This document shows positions 47,409 through 57,432 of a stretch of 64,000 bases of DNA, in pieces. Below the pieces are notes generated by a model. The model saw only the letters and a list, made by a program, of their open reading frames with translations. It did not search any database and had not been told where the DNA came from. Both the position numbers and the translations under genes were made by a program. Within the stretch, counting starts at the first letter, position 1; every line of letters starts with the position of its first letter. Origin of the DNA: Bryoerythrophyllum caledonicum (taxonomy: Eukaryota; Streptophyta; Bryopsida; Pottiales; Pottiaceae); assembly GCA_963971425.1 (NCBI GenBank), contig OZ020523.1, forward strand, positions 15,868,867 to 15,932,866. Direction: 5' to 3'.

Positions 47409-47417
47409 GTGTAGCGT
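47409..47417. repeat. MULE target-site duplication, left
   Basis: GTGTAGCGT here is repeated exactly at 57424-57432. Nine bases is the usual duplication length for Mutator-type insertion. Confidence 0.95.
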
Positions 47418-48063
47418 CCCGGTCACTACAGTCAATCCGAGTTCGCGGTGTCAGGGCCCGGTTTTAGCCCTGACACCGCGAAGACCGGCCCTTCTCCCCA
47501 AGCGCCTTTTCGCCTCCTTCCCACGATAACTGCCACTCTCGCCCTCAATTATTTCGCGCTGCTCGTCTCTCTTTTCGGCACTTCTCGCCGAAAAGCCCCT
47601 TCGCCCCCGCCTTCTCCGGATCACCGAAGTCACCTTCTCGCCCCCGCCTTCTTCGGATCACCGAAGTCTTCTCATCGGCCCGACACGTGTACACCAGAAT
47701 GACCCGCCCTTCTCGGCAGCCCCAAACTGCCATCCACACCGTTTCGTACGGCGCCATCTTTGGCACGATCATTGTGCCGTGTAGAATCCTTTCGGAAGGG
47801 GAGTGATTGTCTGCGCCTGAATTAAGTTCCTCGATCACAATCTTCCCATACACGACAGGTCGAATGGAGATTCTAGCGAGACGGCGCCACCAACCGTTGC
47901 CGATAACGGGGCAGTAGGGAGGAATTGGAGGCGTCAAGGGAGAAAGAAAGAAGCTGGCGTGCAAGAGAAGGGGCTGGAGGACCTTGATGCCGCGATTAGG
48001 GTTTGGCCCGCATGCAGACTACCTGAAGACACACGGTCACAAGGTTCTTCGGATGCGCGATTC
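47418..48063 (+). repeat. MULE left terminal inverted repeat
   Basis: It pairs with 56808-57423, with high identity by eye. About 30 bp near 47620-47670 (CCCCCGCCTTC and GGATCACCGAAGTC) are duplicated here but not on the right, which explains the length difference. An internal hairpin at about 47444-47480 (arms GCGGTGTCAGGGC and inverse) is present in both ends. Confidence 0.9.
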
Positions 48064-48595
48064 GAAGAGTAACGCAATCCAAGCTTATCGCTGATATTTC
48101 CTCAGATTGTAGGTCCAGGCTAATCGGTTTAGGCGGCGTAGGCAATAATCATCATCGCCATCACCATCACCATCAACGTGAAACCCTAATCCAGGCATGG
48201 CAAAGTTTTGTGTGGCGGCACCATTTCCAGCACTTTCGAACAGTGTTTTTTGCCCTCTAGCGACATATCCAGGATCTTCAAGCTCTGCGTCAACGATCGC
48301 TGCTTCAAAACTCCAGGATTTTCAAGCCTCTGCGTCAACGATCGCCGACTGAACTTTTCGGTAAGTTCCCTGCCTTTCTTGCTTTTTATTTAATTCCATT
48401 TCGGTAAGTTCTCTGTCATTCTTACTTTCCATTTCTTTTTGGTGATGCATACAGGCGGTCCTTCTTCCATTCCGTTTCAAATGTGGGGCGTTGGAAAGTA
48501 AGCTGTGTGAAGGTGTAGAAAATTTTGCAAAGCGTCCAGGTTTAGGGTTTAAGAGTTTTAGGGTTATCGATAATCGTTTCTTGCGATAAGGTTTC

Positions 48596-51500
48596 ATGTT
48601 CGGCAATGTCCTTCCTCGCAGGACCGTAAAAATGCCGAAGCGGCCGGTGTGTTTCTGCAAGCCACTGTTTGATGAGATCCCGGTGGAGAACAGGAAAGGG
48701 ATTCCGCCCACCTACAACAAGGAAACGGGGAGGATCGAGCAGCTATTTGTCATTGAGAACGACCACATTTGGCGCGATAGCTGGGAGGTGATGGAGGCGA
48801 GGGACCTTATCCTGGAGCTGCATGGACCGGACTCGCCCATCGTACCGCCTGGACTAACCGGCCCCAAGCAGATACTGTGCATTCATTGCAACACGACGCA
48901 CCACAAGCACAGGTTCAACCTCCACCGGAACCATGCATTGTGCGAAGGGAAGGGGAAGGAGGACGTGAAGATGCCGTCGTATCCCAATTTGGGCGTCAGG
49001 GATGTGGCGAACTTTGTGGCACGACTTCGGGATTGCCAGTCGGCTGAAGATGCAATTCAGGTATTCGGCACCATAGAGCCGATAGCCACGAAGAGGAGGC
49101 CTCGGAAGGGTGCCGATAATGAGGAGGAACCGAACAGTCGACGTCGAATTAAGCGCGGGAAGAAGCTGTCAGAGGAGGGCCCTCCGCAGAAGCATACCGC
49201 GGCGGCTTCTCGGAAAAGACCTCCGCCCCCGAAAGCTATGTCGAGTGACGATACTTCTTCCTCGGCAGAGTCGGGAGGAGATCACAGCACAGATCATGAG
49301 GCCGATAACGCACGGACTCTGACTGTGCACGGCGAGAAGGGCGGTCTTCCGTCCGGGGATGATGCCTCTAGGAATTCCGGTGCCGAGAACCCGATGTCGA
49401 AAGTCCGCACTCGCGCCGGCGCCCAAGAGGGATTCCTCCATCGTCCTCCGGAAGGCGGAGCTTGCGAAGCAGAATGTACCGAAGAAGGTGGCACAAGCTG
49501 AAGAGGCCACGAAGAAGGCGAGATTTGAAGAGTCCTCGAAGAAGGCATTCCTGCCCCCAGCAACGGCAAAAAGGCTACGGGAATGTCTGTGGAAGAGACC
49601 GCGATGGCGAGAAGGCATCGATCCCCACCGGTGCAACAGCGGTTTAGAGAGACGAGTAATGCCGAGAGACCCTCCTACTCTGACGAAGGAACGCCGATTA
49701 CCTCGTACGAATCCCCCCAATCCTCGGCCCAGAAGGAACAGCGACCGCCGCTGACATTGGCCAGTATACTTCGATTAGGCTCTAATGATGGTGCGAATCC
49801 CGATAAGCGCCTCATTCTCCCGGCGAAAGGTAGCAGGGAGCAAGCTTTGGAGTCGGAGAGGGCCGAGATGATACGGCAGGTGCAGGAGGACGCTGCGCGC
49901 CTTTTCCCATTGAAATTGGTGCCCACCCCCGAGAGGAAGGTACCGATAACGCCGCTATATCTACTCCTCAAGCATGGTCTGCTCGACAGTATCACGATGG
50001 GGAGTTTACATTCCGAAGATGAGCTGTTGAAGTACGTCTTGTCCTTGGTGGAGTCTGGAGGCAGCCAGGGGAGGTTCCACCAGGCTCTCGGTGCCTGCAT
50101 TTCCGAAGGGGTCGGCTTCGACGATAACCCTGTTTCGCTTCAACAGTTGTCAAGCCTTTGCAATCTAGCAAAGAATCCGGATTACAGTACAACGAAAGAG
50201 GTCTGGACAGAGGCATCGAGAGGAACGTGGGCATACATGACGCATATGTTGGAGTGCGTCAAGTTAGAAGCGGCTTTACAGGCCAAAAACGACAAACAAA
50301 AGCGGTGCAGGGAGAAGTTAGTCAGGATGGAGATGAGTAGATTTGATGCCGAAAGGGCGGTGGAGATAGAGGCTATTCGATGGGACTTCAACAATCTCTT
50401 CGGGTATTGCGCGATGAACAAGATTCTTCGACCATTGCTGCCCCCACTGCCATGGACGCACAACATTGACGAGGCTCGAGATGTCGTGCACCGTCTAATT
50501 TCTATCAGAATCGACATTGCCCCGTCTCCAGCTCCAGCTAAGCTGTTGAAGTGTTACTTCGTTTGCAACGGGTTCTCGCAGGTGTAAGTTTTTCCTTCTC
50601 GCCACAAACTTGTCCCTTATCGTGTCTTCTCGCCCCTTATCGTGTCTTCTCGCCCCTTATCGTGTCTTCTCGCCCCTTATCGTCTCTCATAGTCTCTTAT
50701 CGTCTCTTATCGTCCGTTATCGTCCCTTATCGTCTCTTATCGTCTCTTATCGTCCCTTATCGGTTTACTTGACTCCGTTGTTTTTCAGGGGCCGGAATAT
50801 GTGCAACCCTACCATATCCCCGGGCCTGCCAGCATTGAATTGTACTTGGACGCTCCAGTGGAAAATTGGGATGGGCCGTCTCAAATGTACGAAGTCCGGA
50901 GTCCCTTCCTCTTCGGAAGGGACGCATCCGATATGCACCTCCCGTTCTCGGCGGCGTTCTTGCGGCTCCGCGATAATAAGAACGGCGGGCGAGATTCTGT
51001 GTTGCGCTTCATCGAAATGGTCCATGCTCGCACTGTCGTGGACACGGCAAGGAGTCATCCAGAGGATTTCGTTCGACAGTGGTGTGCTGCCGATAAGGGT
51101 ACCTACGAACACTGGGATACCCTGGACGAGAACTGCTTGGCAAGGGAGGATCTGGACTTCATGTATGCCGGCTACGTTCCACGTAAGATTTATCCGATAA
51201 CCCCGTCATTCATCTAACTGTTTTCTTCCTCATTCTTGGTATCTTCGTTATTTTCCTGTGACTAACGATAAGGCTTTTGCAGGCACTGTAGATCCTACCG
51301 GGGCACGCGAAAGGAATCTTGCAGAGGCAGATTGCAAGAACGCCGTGTCGCGTCTGGTAAAAAGAGAGTGGGATCGGCGAGAAGGGCATCCAGTGACTTC
51401 ACATGACGAAATTCGGCGGGAGACGTCTACCCAAACAAGGGACCTCGAGGGTGCAGCCACCCTCCTTCACATGGACGAAGGAACCTCGAATGAATTCCGC

Positions 51501-53651
51501 GTCCAGAATCGGTTCCCGGGGAGTAACGAAGACGAAGGATTCCCCGACAAGTGTATGGACGAAGTTACGGAGGAAGCACAAGAGGGGCCTAGCGACGAAA
51601 TACGTCAGGGAGGTGTTCCCGATAGCGTCCAGGAAGAGCCCGCTTCTACAACGGTGAAGTCACCGGGCCGTCCCGCCGATAACCCATCTCCCATGGAGTT
51701 TTCGTGGACACAAGCTATGAATGACCCTACCCTCGGCTTTCCGGAGTCTTCACAGTCGCTGATGGGGCTATCTCAATTCGACACCCCTCTTCAGCATGTT
51801 GTGTTTGGGGGTACGGGGGAGACGGAACCCGGCATTAAACCCCACCGTCTATCGTTCCCTCTGTCGAGTCAAGGTATTGAAAACCTGGACTCTACTGACA
51901 GTCCCCCGGTGGTTCCCGAGGCGCCTTCCGTGACACCCTTTGAAAGTCATCCAATCCCAGAGAAGGCTCCCTCTCCGGACTCCGATTACGCTTCTCCGCC
52001 AGGGCCCGATAACCCTGCTCCTCCGCCAGAGCCCGAGAACCCGCCAGAGCCCGAGAACCCTGCTACCCCACCAGAGCCCCAGAACTATGCCAGTCCGCCA
52101 GAACCCGTTGAGCCTCCTTCAGTGCCAGATCCTGATAGCCCTGTTCTGGTATCTGAGCCCGATAAGCCTGCTCCTTCGCCAGAGCTCGATATGCCTGCTC
52201 CTCCGCCATGACCCGTTCAGGCTCCTCCTCCGCAAGAGCCCGATAACCCTTCTCCAAAGGAGATGGACCCCGAGGAGATGAGACTGGCATTGCGCTTTAT
52301 CAAGGAAGCACATGAATCTGGGATGTCTAGTATTTGGATTTATCCTGGACTCGAAGAGCGTGTTATGAACAGAAGGGAAGGACAGAAGGCGGCGTATACG
52401 TGCATGTCGAAGGAGAACCGCGGAGTATGTACGTCAGACTGTGTGTCCTGGGAGAAAGAGCCCTCGCTCTGCTACGAAGCCGAGGAGCATGACGCATCCA
52501 TGATAGAGAAGAACCTCGACATTATTGTAGAGGTCCTAATGCGGCGGTGAGTGTCGTCGTCTATGTTATCGTGTTCTCTGACACCTACTGTTTATCATCA
52601 CCTATTGTCTAACGTCCGCTTTCTTCTGAATTGCAGGCCTCCTTTTATTCACCCGAAGGACCTGACTGGAGGTATGAGGTTTTTTGGTCCAGACCTTCGG
52701 CAAGCCGTGGATGTCTCGCTCGCACTACAGGACTGGCATTACGTGCTAAAGGACAAGCGGGAAATGGAAGGCACATTTCTGGATTTCATCCTTAGGCATG
52801 TCGTCTACCGTGCGAAGGAGCATGTTCGAATCCAGTATCATCACACGCACAACTGGTTATCGGCGACTTTGCAGTGCTATCTGGCGGATGAAGCGAAGGG
52901 TTGGGATGACATCGTGAGCTTTCTCAGCCGCTCGTTCTGTAGCACCACCCAGACGCCGAATACCCTTATCGTCCCTTACCACGATAAGGGTCACTGGAGC
53001 GTATTCGTCGTGGAGCAAAGGCGAACGTATCACCTGGACCCAGCGAAAGGCATGCACAAGGGTCGGGAAGTGAACAACTTCATCTTCCTTGTGCACATGG
53101 GATGGGCAACCGCGAAGGGCGTGAGGATCGGATCTCGGAGTTGGACTGAATGGCAGAGTCGATCGCCGATAAGGTTGCCTTTGCCTAGTCAGAAAGAAAG
53201 CTGGGAGTGTGGTTTCATGGCAGGCTTGGGCTTTTGGCAGTACCTGATCGCACGTGGTGGGCGCAAAGAGGCGGAGGAGAAGACCGTGACGGAGACCAAA
53301 TATCTGGACTGGGACGGGAAGAAGGCGTACCGATGGTTCATGCAAGCGCTGTATACGGAGATTGTCGCACCGCTTCCGTTCCACGATGCCCTTAATCTAT
53401 GTGGTCAGGATACGGTGGAGTTCGGAAGCGGAAGTCCGGACGTAGTTTTCGTGGAAGCCGGTACAGAGACGGCGAAGAAGAAAGAAGTCCCAGTTCTTGG
53501 TATTTCGGAGACAGTGGGGGATCGTGATCTTCAGGGCTTCAACGTGCTCACAAACCCACCAGTGACTCGAGGAAGGCGGAAGAAGTCAACCGCGCCGAAA
53601 AGCCCGCAAAAAACGAGAAAACCGAAGGGCACCACCAAGACAAAGAAGTAG
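48596..53651 (+). CDS. Ulp1-type protease gene of the MULE, with lesions
   Basis: Predicted exons are 48596-50581, 50789-51182, 51283-52546 and 52637-53651, all with GT/AG borders and matching phases (1553 codons in all including the stop). The N-terminal part has a Cys/His cluster (CIHCNTTHHKHRFNLHRNH) near residue 100. Next comes a Lys- and Glu-rich stretch and a mostly helical middle. Exon 3 ends in repeats of PPEPENP type. The last exon carries a C48 (Ulp1/SENP) protease fold with H in GHWSVFVV (codon 52992), D in YHLDP (53037), Q (53190) and C in WECGF (53208), followed by a Lys-rich tail. Lesions: the frame shifts near 49415 and back near 49570 (two compensating changes, the first frame hits TGA at 49499), and TGA at 52206-52208 region interrupts the Pro repeats. 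If the TGA is real, the protease exons would need their own start (for example ATG 52263). Ulp1-like domains are known in plant MULEs (for example Kaonashi and VANDAL types). Confidence 0.75.
50582..50788 (+). repeat. intron with a 10-bp phased TTATCG array
   Basis: TTATCG starts at 50617, 50637, 50657, 50677, 50697, 50707, 50717, 50727, 50737, 50747 and 50757. All spacings are multiples of 10 bp. A degenerate copy (TCATAG) stands at 50687. The array lies inside the first intron, between donor GTGTAAGT and acceptor TTTTTCAG. The same hexamer is frequent through the whole MULE. Confidence 0.95.
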
Positions 53652-54112
53652 GCGATAAGGGGGGGTGTTGTACATAGCCGATAGACTCCAGGAATTTGTA
53701 CAGATTAATAGGATGCCGATGTTGTACATTTCATTCATTGTAAATGACAATTTTTTCGATAGCGTACATAAACGGATTTTGGGACCCCCTTGCAGAGGCT
53801 TGTAAGCGGAACTTAAAATCCAGTCTTTGCCGATTATATTGAATGTTGAGTTTTAACTTTCAAACTAAAGAAATATCACTTCAGTGGAAATTTCAGCCGA
53901 TGCATGGAACTTAATCTAAGAGCATCTTATCGGCAGTATTCTACCGATAAGATTACTAATGGTTATCGGTGCAGGTTTGTAGCTGAAATCCTCTGCCCTT
54001 TATACTCATCCACATCGGTGCCGATAACCTAAGTTGTTTCTTGAGTTAGTCTTTCGCTAGGTGGAACGGACCTCACCCAAAAACCTCTGGAATCCAGGAA
54101 GTCATGCAACCT
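53652..54112. terminator. intergenic region between the convergent MULE genes
   Basis: About 460 bp between the stop codons of the two genes. It must contain both polyadenylation regions, and is AT-richer than the coding parts. Several TTATCG/CGATAA words lie between 53930 and 54030. I see no clear canonical poly(A) signal for either gene. Confidence 0.5.
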
Positions 54113-56818
54113 TCAGAGCCTCATTCCAAGACCGTCTTCATTTGTGGGGAGCGGTGCAGCTATATCCTGGAGTGGATGAAGCATTCCGGCTTCGATTTCA
54201 GCCTCCAACCTTGAGAGGGTGGCGTCGGTGTTGCGCAAAGCTGCATCCAAGTGTCTTGCTAGCAACGGTTGGCGATAAGCCTTCTCGAGTAGCTTCAGGA
54301 CAAGCTGATGCATACGATCAAAGTCGCATACCCATGTCTCCCCTAATTCTCGAAGGTTGGAAGTCACTGGGATTACATCTCCGGCTTCGGTATCGGAGGG
54401 AACATCATTATCGGGGAAGCCCTCGGTATTCGGGTGTCGACCATTGTCTTGGCGGAGAAGATTCGTCATTCCTCCTTGGATTGTGCCGCGAAGGGAACCC
54501 AGATATCTAGCAATTTTGCCCTCCGCCAGGTCAGGTCTTGTCATTTTCAGGACCTTAACCTGGTGCTTACAGATGTTACTTTTCTGGGAATGAACACATT
54601 GGCAGACGGCCCATTCGGTGCATGGATTGTATACCGCATACGTAATGTGTCTCCTATTCGAGGATTTAACGTATGCAGGACCTCCCGACCACTCGAGCAA
54701 GGTGACCACATTATCGGGAATTGTGTTTGCTTGGTTGATTGCATTGACCATGATCTGCCGCTGCCTCTTGTTCTTTATAAAACCGTTTAGCTTACACCAG
54801 TGACTGTAATCATACTTCTCGATGACATTTCCAGTGAGCTCATAAATAAGCCAGTCCATCCTTTGGCCGATAAGCTTCCTTTTGGATTGCCGGAGCACTG
54901 CTTTCATGTTAGAATGGTATGATTCGATCGCTGCAGTGGTGTCCTGGCCAGCATGGGGGATTTTCCGGTCTCCCACAACCCACATTTTGATTTTCGGGAG
55001 CCATTCCTTGTCGAAGTACTTCCAGTATGCATCAGCGTCTGGCAAGAGACCCTTAGCTTCGCCGTAAACGTGCCGCACCCACTCTACCAAATTCCACACC
55101 TTATCGCCGGGAGCTCTCGCCAAAGGGTCTTGGAAGTCACTAGGTGTCTCTGATACGTACATAAGTGAGCCCACAATTCGCAAAGCTCCGGCCCTCGTCT
55201 CCATGTCTTTCAACTTAGCACATGCATTCTTTTGCCACGCTCGACGAACATGCCAGAGACATAGAAATAGATGCGAGTGCGGCCAAACCTCCCTGCGATA
55301 ACCCGACACGCCGATAAGTACAACTCGCTGAAGCCCGTCACCCGATAACGTAAGAATGCTAAATTGCTTACCAAAGAGAGTTGATCTCATTATCGGCGTC
55401 GTCAAGTACAAAGGCAGTGGGTCTCCAGTCCGGCCTTATCTGCACCAACTTCTGGTTCAGAGCGCGCATCCAAGGGACGAGATCTGCTTGTTTGGATTTC
55501 GCAGTGATCACGAAAGCCACTGGAACACCGTTTCTCCACTCGTCGAATACCATCATCGTGAAGAGCGGATACTGGACACGCAAGCAAGGAATTAAGCGGT
55601 ATGGGAGTGAGTGCTCCTAATTTTTATACGGACCCTACATGGAGCACGGTAAAGGTATGTGTACCTTTTTGTTGTTCGTTGCGAATGTCCCGTCTATAGC
55701 AATAATGTTATCGTGACTGTATTTCAGCATCATGTGCGTCTGAAATGGGGTTTGAATCCTAATTACGAAGGGTACGTTATCGGCATTCAGCACTCCGTCG
55801 ACCTTGCTGCTTGGGTCTTGGTAGTAAAAAACCGTACCTCGGTTTTCTCTTACCCACATTCTCACACTCTCAGCGTCGTTGTCGTGTTTCTTGTATAGTT
55901 CCTGCGCACGGACTCCGCATATGTTGCGGATGTCCTCCATGCTAAGGAAACAATCCCGAGAAGGCGTAAGAGTGCCCTCATCCCGTGCCTTCGGTACCAG
56001 CTTCTGGTGCTTCTGTATTATAGCTGCCATTGGAACTTGCTCTTCAAATTGCCTACGAACCCAAAGCCTTACTTCCTCCGATATGTACTTCCGGAAGCGG
56101 AGCTTTCCCCTTTGCACATTGTCCTTATCGTGGACGATGAGGCCCTGTGTGTCGACATGTTCCGAGCAAAAGTACCCTATCTCGGCGATATATGGTAGAA
56201 AATAGTACCTCTTTACGTAGAATCGACATTGGCAGCCCACTTTCATAGAGCCCCCCTCCTTCGCATCAGTGGCACGAGGGCCTTTCTGGCCAGCGCCGGA
56301 CGTAAGTTGTTTCCCTTTGTGATCGTATTTCGATGGCGTTGGTGTCATTTCGGGCGTGATAGCTTGGATCTTGTCCCTGTTGTCTTCGGGACCGTATTGA
56401 CAACGCCATCTGCTTATCGGCGTTGACCATCAGAGATACGTGCGGTACTGAAGAGATGTAATGGCACAACTGATAAACAGATCTACCGTGTATATTGAAT
56501 GTGATATCAGAGGTCGTGATTCACTTACCGCTGATACTCGATGTGGCAGTTCCACCGATAGTGCATCTTCTCGCCGACGTTTGTGGGGTCGTTCTTGTCG
56601 CGGACGAAGGTAGTCTCTACATCCTTTCGGCCAGACTGCTCACCCTCCACGAAATCCGAGACCCTATCCCAGGGAATGTAGGCGATAAGCTTGGACTGCT
56701 TCCTCTTCGATGATTGCGGATCGTCTACGAACCTCGTATCATTCTCGGCCTCCATGTTCCACCTAAGACATTTCCACGTCAAAATCCCTGGAGGAGGGTT
56801 CTGTAATGAATCGCGCAT
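54113..56818 (-). CDS. MULE transposase, 804 residues, spliced
   Basis: Exons on the minus strand: 56818-56529, 56409-55665, 55571-55372 and 55292-54113. The introns (119, 93 and 79 bp) have GT/AG ends, and the sum (2415 bp) is an exact multiple of three with no internal stop. The N-terminal part (about residues 40-210) has the Cys/His layout of a FAR1-like DNA-binding domain (including KVGCQCRFYVKR). The DDE core is complete: D336 in IAIDGTF, D402/D403 in FVLDDADNE and E535 in AAIESYHSN, with the family motif LCLWHVRRAW between them. A SWIM finger C642-x-C-x8-C653-x-H655 follows. The C-terminal 130 residues are helical and acidic. The start ATG 56818 lies just inside the TIR edge; an alternative in-frame start is the M of MEAEND. 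The gene seems able to encode a full-length, active enzyme. Confidence 0.9.
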
Positions 56819-57423
56819 CCGAAGAACCTTGTGACCGTGTTTCTTCAGGTAGTCTGCATGCTAGCCTTCCCGGAACGCGGCATCAAGGTCCTCCACCCCC
56901 TTCTCACGCACGCCAGCCGGTTTCTTTCTCCCTTGACGCCTCCATTTCCTCCCTGCTGCCCCGTTATCGGCAACGGTTGGTGCCGCCGTCTCGCCAGAAT
57001 TCCCATTCGGCCTGTCTTGGATGGGGAGATTGAGATCGAGGAACTCCATTCACGCGGAGACAAGCACTCCCCTTCCGGCAAAGTGCTACACGGCACAATA
57101 GATCGTGCGAAAGACGGCGCAGTACGAAACGATGTGGATGACACTTCGCGCCGGCATCCGCCGAGAAGGGCGGGTCATTCTGGAGTACACGTGGCGGGGG
57201 CGAGAAGGTGACTTCGGTGATCCGGAGAAGGCGGGGGCGAAGGGGCTTTTCGGCGAGAAGTGCCGAAAAGAGAGACGGGCAGCGCAAAATAATTGAGGGC
57301 GAGAGTGGCAGTTATCGTGGGAAGGAGGCGAAAAGGCGCTTGGGGAGAAGGGCCGGTCTTCGCGGTGTCAGGGCTAAAACCGGGCCCTGACACCGCGAAC
57401 CCGGATTGACTGTAGTGACCGGG
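56808..57423 (-). repeat. MULE right terminal inverted repeat
   Basis: The inverse of 47418-48063 with few changes. Its inner edge holds the transposase start codon (56818), so the transposase promoter must lie in the TIR. ORFs over the TIR (for example 56831-57211 and 57175-57660) are not supported; they appear in both TIRs because the TIR sequence is repeated. Confidence 0.9.
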
Positions 57424-57432
57424 GTGTAGCGT
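57424..57432. repeat. MULE target-site duplication, right
   Basis: GTGTAGCGT, identical to 47409-47417. Confidence 0.95.

Follow-up and report, generated by a model that had tools for sequence, protein, structure and literature searches.

Element-specific anti-silencing is documented for the VANDAL elements of Arabidopsis and, by the account of a review, for their ULP-bearing relatives in eudicots; what we say of these systems follows the parts of the cited papers that were available to us. VANC21 binds the motif YAGTATTAY in non-coding regions, often in tandem repeats, the motifs of VANC6 differ from those of VANC21, VANC proteins carry the domain DUF1985, and VANC evolves fast and contains internal tandem repeats whereas VANA is conserved (PMC5735166). 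The non-coding regions bound by VANCs overlap the targets of RNA-directed DNA methylation (PMC10398659). Some VANDALs possess VANC genes with a Ulp1 domain (KIU), the capture of which has been placed near the monocot-eudicot split (PMC13317346), and ULP domains occur in several groups of Mutator-like elements (MULEs), with and without terminal inverted repeats (TIRs) and in both orientations (PMC2528002). Here we describe a 10,006-bp MULE at positions 47418-57423 of a 64,000-nucleotide stretch of genomic DNA (contig OZ020523.1; the whole stretch is called the window) that is saturated with the hexamer CGATAA (TTATCG on the other strand). From our analysis, the chances are about even that this element possesses a VANC-like, element-specific recognition system in which the product of a second, plus-strand gene reads CGATAA.

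A direct count yielded 56 copies of CGATAA/TTATCG in the element, compared with 4.2 and 4.6 expected under first- and second-order Markov models and with a mean of 4.3 and a maximum of 11 in 500 first-order random sequences. A first-pass annotation of the window, which had estimated about 55 copies by eye against about five expected by chance at even base use, is confirmed. CGATAA has the highest z-score of all hexamers in the element, and it still ranks first, with 45 copies versus 4.0 expected, when a single tandem array at 50612-50762 that holds 11 of the 56 copies is masked; at least one copy is present in 30 of the 41 250-bp bins. The remaining 54 kb of the window contain 10 copies versus 16.4 expected, so the scarcity outside the element that had been noted is real, but the figure of about six given for it was too low. 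The host background, taken from the first five of 20 random 10-kb genome pieces drawn, amounts to 0, 0, 1, 1 and 1 copies. With the array masked (n=45), the base preceding the motif is C or G at 34 sites, A at nine and T at two, and the base following it is C or G at 39, T at six and never A, in rough agreement with the proposed context (C/G)CGATAA(G/C). Only one of the 18 single-base neighbours of the motif, CGAGAA (23 versus 7.6), exceeds its expectation more than 1.8-fold, followed by CGATAG, CGATTA and CGAAAA at 1.7-1.8-fold. CGAGAA and CGATAA replace each other among six copies of the element at the aligned sites 49333, 49384, 49608, 50747, 52034 and 54282, and CGAGAA may be a weaker, second-best site or a sign that the motif is shifting. 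None of the papers in the collection searched pairs the whole words 'CGATAA' and 'transposon'.

The ends of the element are exact, since it is bordered by a perfect 9-bp target-site duplication (TSD), GTGTAGCGT, read directly at 47409-47417 and 57424-57432. The left TIR (47418-48063, 646 bp) is 86% identical to the right one (56808-57423, minus strand) according to blastn, and each contains two motifs. Two genes face each other, the second gene on the plus strand and the transposase on the minus strand. The plus-strand gene consists of exon 1 (48597-50585, start and end inferred; five motifs), a 204-bp intron 1 (50586-50789) that contains the tandem array with its 10/20-bp period and the 11 motifs, exon 2 (50790-51184, an open frame with GT/AG borders), the proline-rich exon 3 with a 27-bp coding repeat (51284-52548) and exon 4 (52639-53652). 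A 460-bp gap with five motifs (53653-54112) separates it from the transposase gene, which comprises, from its 3′ end, exon 4 (54113-55290), an 81-bp intron with three motifs (55291-55371), exon 3 (55372-55600) and exon 2 (55662-56441), both with approximate ends, and exon 1 (56528-56860, an open frame). One transposase exon matches the protein P0014 at 41%, and P0014 carries PF10551 above the cut-off (E 1.1e-08); the window's own transposase exons, scanned with Pfam, gave no PF10551 match. By its TSD, its TIRs and its transposase relatives with PF10551, the element is a MULE of the Mutator superfamily.

The motif occurs in the TIRs, the introns, the coding exons of both genes and the gap between them, just as the first-pass annotation had it. 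Its density is 3.7/kb in coding sequence (26 in 7,123 bp), 12.4/kb in non-coding sequence (28 in 2,260 bp, 11 of them from the array, with the two of the right TIR outside this sum) and 3.1/kb in the TIRs. The two short transposase introns of the window copy (61 and 86 bp) hold none, although 27 of the 29 other copies carry a motif at position 56471, within one of these introns. We shuffled synonymous codons within each gene, leaving out the frame-disturbed stretch 49400-49561, and obtained a mean of 3.0 motifs for the plus-strand gene (maximum 9 of 2,000 shuffles), which has 15, and of 2.8 for the transposase (maximum 8 of 2,000), which has 11. The exon counts lie beyond all synonymous shuffles, and protein sequence and codon usage therefore do not explain the excess. 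At 18 of the 26 coding sites the motif falls in the frame NNC GAT AAN and so encodes Asp-Asn or Asp-Lys.

The family to which the element belongs, family A, is large: further copies were found in the 437-Mb genome at 94-100% identity among the best 40 of 320 DNA candidates scored and at 88-100% among the best 96 of 956 candidates scored in a protein search. Five of them, taken as 10-kb pieces with 89-96% overall identity, contain 47-54 motifs each, of which 37-47 are common to the window copy, with 9-19 of the window copy's motifs absent and 7-12 additional; motifs thus turn over at similar density in diverged copies. The intron-1 array differs in length, with 1, 3, 4, 6, 8 and 11 motifs in the six copies (11 in the window copy), and its flanks align. 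C-to-T change at CpG is raised across copies, as would be expected for methylated DNA. Genome-wide, three closely spaced CGATAA gave 1,020 matches versus 73 for the reversed pattern; the 100 matches listed all come from contig C1, and 74 of them are no more than 9 kb away from a listed family A match or a listed match of the sister family B described below. These 100 fall into 26 distinct places, 14 of them near listed A or B matches and three of the other 12 with a minisatellite. This minisatellite, with a unit like CGATAAAGGAGCAACGTGT, is located at 5.69, 6.03 and 6.10 Mb of G000:C1, away from the MULE matches listed.

Family B became visible with the query P0002: among the best 96 of 904 candidates scored, 66 frames score above family A, and 62 of these 66 family B transposase frames are stop-free, many with equal scores. 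A complete copy, pieced together from L041 and L044, measures 10.25 kb, with 314-bp TIRs at 100% identity and the 9-bp TSD GTTGCGGTC, and has the same two-gene layout as family A. CGATAA is in excess here as well (36 versus 5.7), together with CGATAG (26 versus 6.5), CGATAT (25 versus 6.9) and, less so, CGATAC (11 versus 5.7), while the corresponding counts in family A with the array masked are 45, 7, 4 and 2; the core is therefore CGATA in B and CGATAA in A. The preference for C or G after CGATAA is kept in B (31 of 36). In 1,000 synonymous shuffles of B, CGATA reached a mean of 10.8 and a maximum of 24 in the plus-strand gene, which has 38, and a mean of 7.2 and a maximum of 15 in the transposase, which has 20; for CGATAA in the plus-strand gene the figures are 14 observed, 2.4 on average and 10 at most. 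When a 9,474-bp piece of B was aligned with A, only seven motif columns coincided, of 56 in A and 32 in B, including one in intron 1 of the plus-strand gene and none in its exons, where column homology is uncertain at 45-52% identity. The saturation of the two families by one word is therefore mostly independent, and such a pattern is difficult to account for unless something reads the word. Family D (L045), a MULE of this genome with a less closely related transposase (39% identity to A and 37% to B), contains two CGATAA versus 1.1 expected in the 4-kb piece of one copy, compared with 21 versus 1.9 and 16 versus 2.5 in pieces of the same size from A and B. A density equal to that of the element was thus seen neither in the piece of this distant MULE nor in the host pieces counted.

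Some features of family B merit mention in their own right. The stop-free frames and the many equal scores (L041, L042, L043 and the frames listed), together with the identical TIRs of the complete copy, point to a burst of transposition that is recent and may still be going on. In L042, a 200-N gap is followed by a second B copy (C7:19657180) in the same orientation, which could reflect a tandem insertion or the assembly. Family B, too, has a raised number of CGAGA, and two of the 66 frames, C514 and C12:5075230, perhaps represent further lineages.

The plus-strand gene is the most likely source of a reader. When its exon 4 is aligned with family B and two proteins from databases, H148, D163, Q214 and C220 (numbered in the open reading frame 52551-53651) are invariant in all four sequences. 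A profile of these four sequences, compared with 177,635 PDB sequences, gave a single match up to E 10, namely SENP2 (E 0.12), in which all four residues line up; a profile from three of the four sequences gave no PDB match. The Pfam C48 model was reached by one of the four members at E 0.09, below the cut-off, and an AlphaFold model of the exon had a predicted local distance difference test (pLDDT) value of 35, too poor for a structure search. From these results taken as a whole we infer that exon 4 probably encodes a Ulp1-like domain, a feature absent from the first-pass annotation that would fit the VANC-Ulp1 genes described in the available parts of PMC13317346. The N-terminal part, in exon 1, contains a Cys/His cluster, C-x2-C...H-R-x-N-L-H-x-N-H-A-x-C, that is kept in family B. 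The scanned exons did not match DUF1985, and no homologue of the middle exon was found at E 0.001. Among six A copies, the mean ratio of nonsynonymous to synonymous polymorphism (pN/pS) is 0.34 for the Ulp1-like exon, well below 1, compared with 0.37 and 0.42 for two transposase exons, 0.52 for the N-terminus, 0.78 for the middle and 0.88 for the proline-rich part. Identity between the two families is 71% in the transposase exon, whereas it reaches only 40% in the Ulp1-like exon and 34% in the N-terminus, and hence the partner gene evolves faster. By these measures of polymorphism and divergence, the plus-strand gene is fast-evolving and under purifying selection.

The locus resembles VANDAL21 and VANDAL6, as far as these are described in the parts available to us, in the fast partner gene beside a conserved transposase, the accumulation of a short motif, the intronic tandem arrays that vary between copies, the tandem repeats in the coding part of the partner gene and the different motif specificities of related families. 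Families A and B differ in their motifs as variants of one core, and the VANDAL-like divergence of the partner gene is clear. Unlike in the VANDALs, the motif is CGATAA instead of YAGTATTAY or AGTTGT(C/A)C, the coding exons are saturated, the TIRs are long, a DUF1985 match is lacking and the sister families have a common core; moreover, the host is probably not a seed plant, and binding and anti-silencing are predictions here. The analogy with VANDALs and VANC drawn in the first-pass annotation therefore finds partial support in the intron array, the motif turnover, the saturation of the sister family and the fast partner gene, and is weakened by the coding-exon sites and the missing DUF1985 match, for which the control genomes were silent too. 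With its putative Ulp1-like domain, the second gene on the strand opposite the transposase also resembles those of KAONASHI and other ULP-carrying MULEs and the KIU type of VANC. In contrast to ULP-carrying MULEs, the domain described here is diverged, with Pfam C48 below the cut-off, and is combined with a Cys/His cluster and no DUF1985 match; in the literature compared, as far as it was available, motif accumulation is reported for VANDALs and not for ULP-carrying MULEs. The 9-bp TSD, the long TIRs and a transposase related to PF10551 proteins are those of the MULE/Mutator superfamily, from which the locus departs in that the Pfam model does not recognise the window's scanned transposase exons.

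We propose that this MULE tags itself with CGATAA. The element would encode a DNA-binding protein that specifically recognises VCGATAAS (core CGAKA), and the most likely candidate is the plus-strand product, in which a Cys/His cluster at the N-terminus is combined with a Ulp1-like C-terminal part. Sites spread over the whole element would recruit this reader at high local concentration and to its own family only, and the bound reader would keep or make the chromatin accessible, similar to the anti-silencing by VANC. The Ulp1-like part might act by removing SUMO from silencing factors or complexes, a route that is conjecture. As a result, both genes would be transcribed and the element could move. 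That some protein reads the motif appears very likely to us; that the reader is the plus-strand protein is a view we favour with some reserve, and for an anti-silencing role the odds seem balanced. In the available parts of PMC6446971 and PMC12859917 there is nothing contrary to this proposal.

Several observations weigh against it. Coding sites make up 26 of the 56 motifs, whereas the VANC21 sites of PMC5735166 are described as non-coding in the parts of that paper available to us. The Ulp1 assignment combines weak Pfam and PDB profile scores with catalytic residues in register, the scanned exons of the plus-strand gene contain no Pfam DNA-binding domain above the cut-off, and DUF1985 (PF09331) has no match in the element's own genome, although the control genomes are equally silent and absence is not implied. 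The plus-strand gene of the window copy is broken: compared with L032-L035, exon 1 has deletions of 8 bp near 49407 and of 1 bp near 49575, with a shifted frame between them, and exon 3 has a TGA at 52209-52211 that is found in one of 30 copies, the window copy (two of the 30 are unaligned there). Given the two frame-shifting deletions and the TGA, the protein probably comes from other copies. In family B, the transposase exons contain six CGATAA versus 2.3 on average, within the shuffle maximum of 8, and CCGAGA occupies more bins than CGATAA (25 versus 21). The family D control is a single 4-kb piece. We also looked for a hypomethylation footprint at motif CpGs in 29 copies (L027 was dropped from the original 30) and did not find one: 39 of 58 motif sites had changed by events versus 433 of 646 others, and the change by copies was 0.029 versus 0.039. 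Raised motif gain among close copies was likewise not found, with two singleton gains versus 1.2 expected among six copies, and the same copies show 14 losses. Near-expected gains, these losses and ordinary CpG change mean that the sampled insertions mostly decay and that the signal of maintenance lies between lineages.

The common core of A and B, in spite of plus-strand genes with only 34-40% amino acid identity, would also fit a host protein as reader. In this case a transcription or chromatin factor of the host, for example one of the GATA/I-box or MYB type, would bind the motif and be exploited for expression, with no reader encoded by the element. A non-coding motif density more than three times the coding density favours this as well. 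However, the rest of the window lies below expectation (10 versus 16.4) and the five host pieces hold at most one copy each, a promoter or enhancer would not need saturated internal exons and a saturated 3′ gap, the two families do not share one specificity (CGATAA in A, CGATA in B), and the distant family D shows no excess in the 4 kb read, so that we consider a host reader unlikely, with a probability of perhaps one in five. Somewhat less probable still is that the transposase itself reads the motif and that the interior sites titrate or concentrate it on its own element. The conservation of its exon between A and B alongside a common core motif agrees with this, but few motifs lie in the TIRs (two in 646 bp), the expected binding place of a transposase, and the specificity has shifted while the transposase stayed similar.

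That the excess is an artefact, produced by base composition, by the protein sequence or by tandem duplication, is very improbable. Eleven of the 56 copies do come from one array, and top hexamers elsewhere in the genome reach a z-score of 16.7 (in L040), yet the excess persists with the array masked and occupies 30 of 41 bins, the synonymous shuffles are exceeded, CGAGAA alone among the 18 neighbours stands out and the sites of B are mostly different. Chance, composition and an origin in the protein sequence were accordingly rejected on the Markov counts, the synonymous shuffles and the sister family. L040 itself, a random host piece, contains 11 CGAGAA, other strongly repeated hexamers such as AGAAGA and CCGGAA, and long open frames. 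Below E 0.2 it matches neither the element nor the element's proteins, and it seems to be a different repeat.

As for the host genome in general, 58 matches to light-harvesting genes and 10 to dynein heavy chains were found. This combination suggests a green plant whose sperm are flagellate, probably one of the bryophytes or fern allies and not a seed plant. A cluster of weaker matches to the light-harvesting domain is present at 18.74-18.82 Mb of G000:C4, which we take to be, perhaps, ELIP-like genes.

Taken to its full extent, the proposal would be one of VANC-like anti-silencing outside seed plants, perhaps independently evolved, in which a Ulp1-like Cys/His protein reads CGATAA, the codon choice of both genes is bent so that the exons carry the tag, and two families diverge in specificity between CGATAA and CGATA; we hold this complete version tentatively, at somewhat less than even chances. 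If the host lies outside the seed plants, a motif-saturated MULE bearing a Ulp1-like gene would be placed far outside the range given in the available parts of PMC13317346. If the proposal is true, it would provide a second instance of such a system, with a ready-made motif and two specificities, in which the origin, the generality and the coevolution of motif and reader become testable, and it could offer another sequence-specific tool for epigenome editing.

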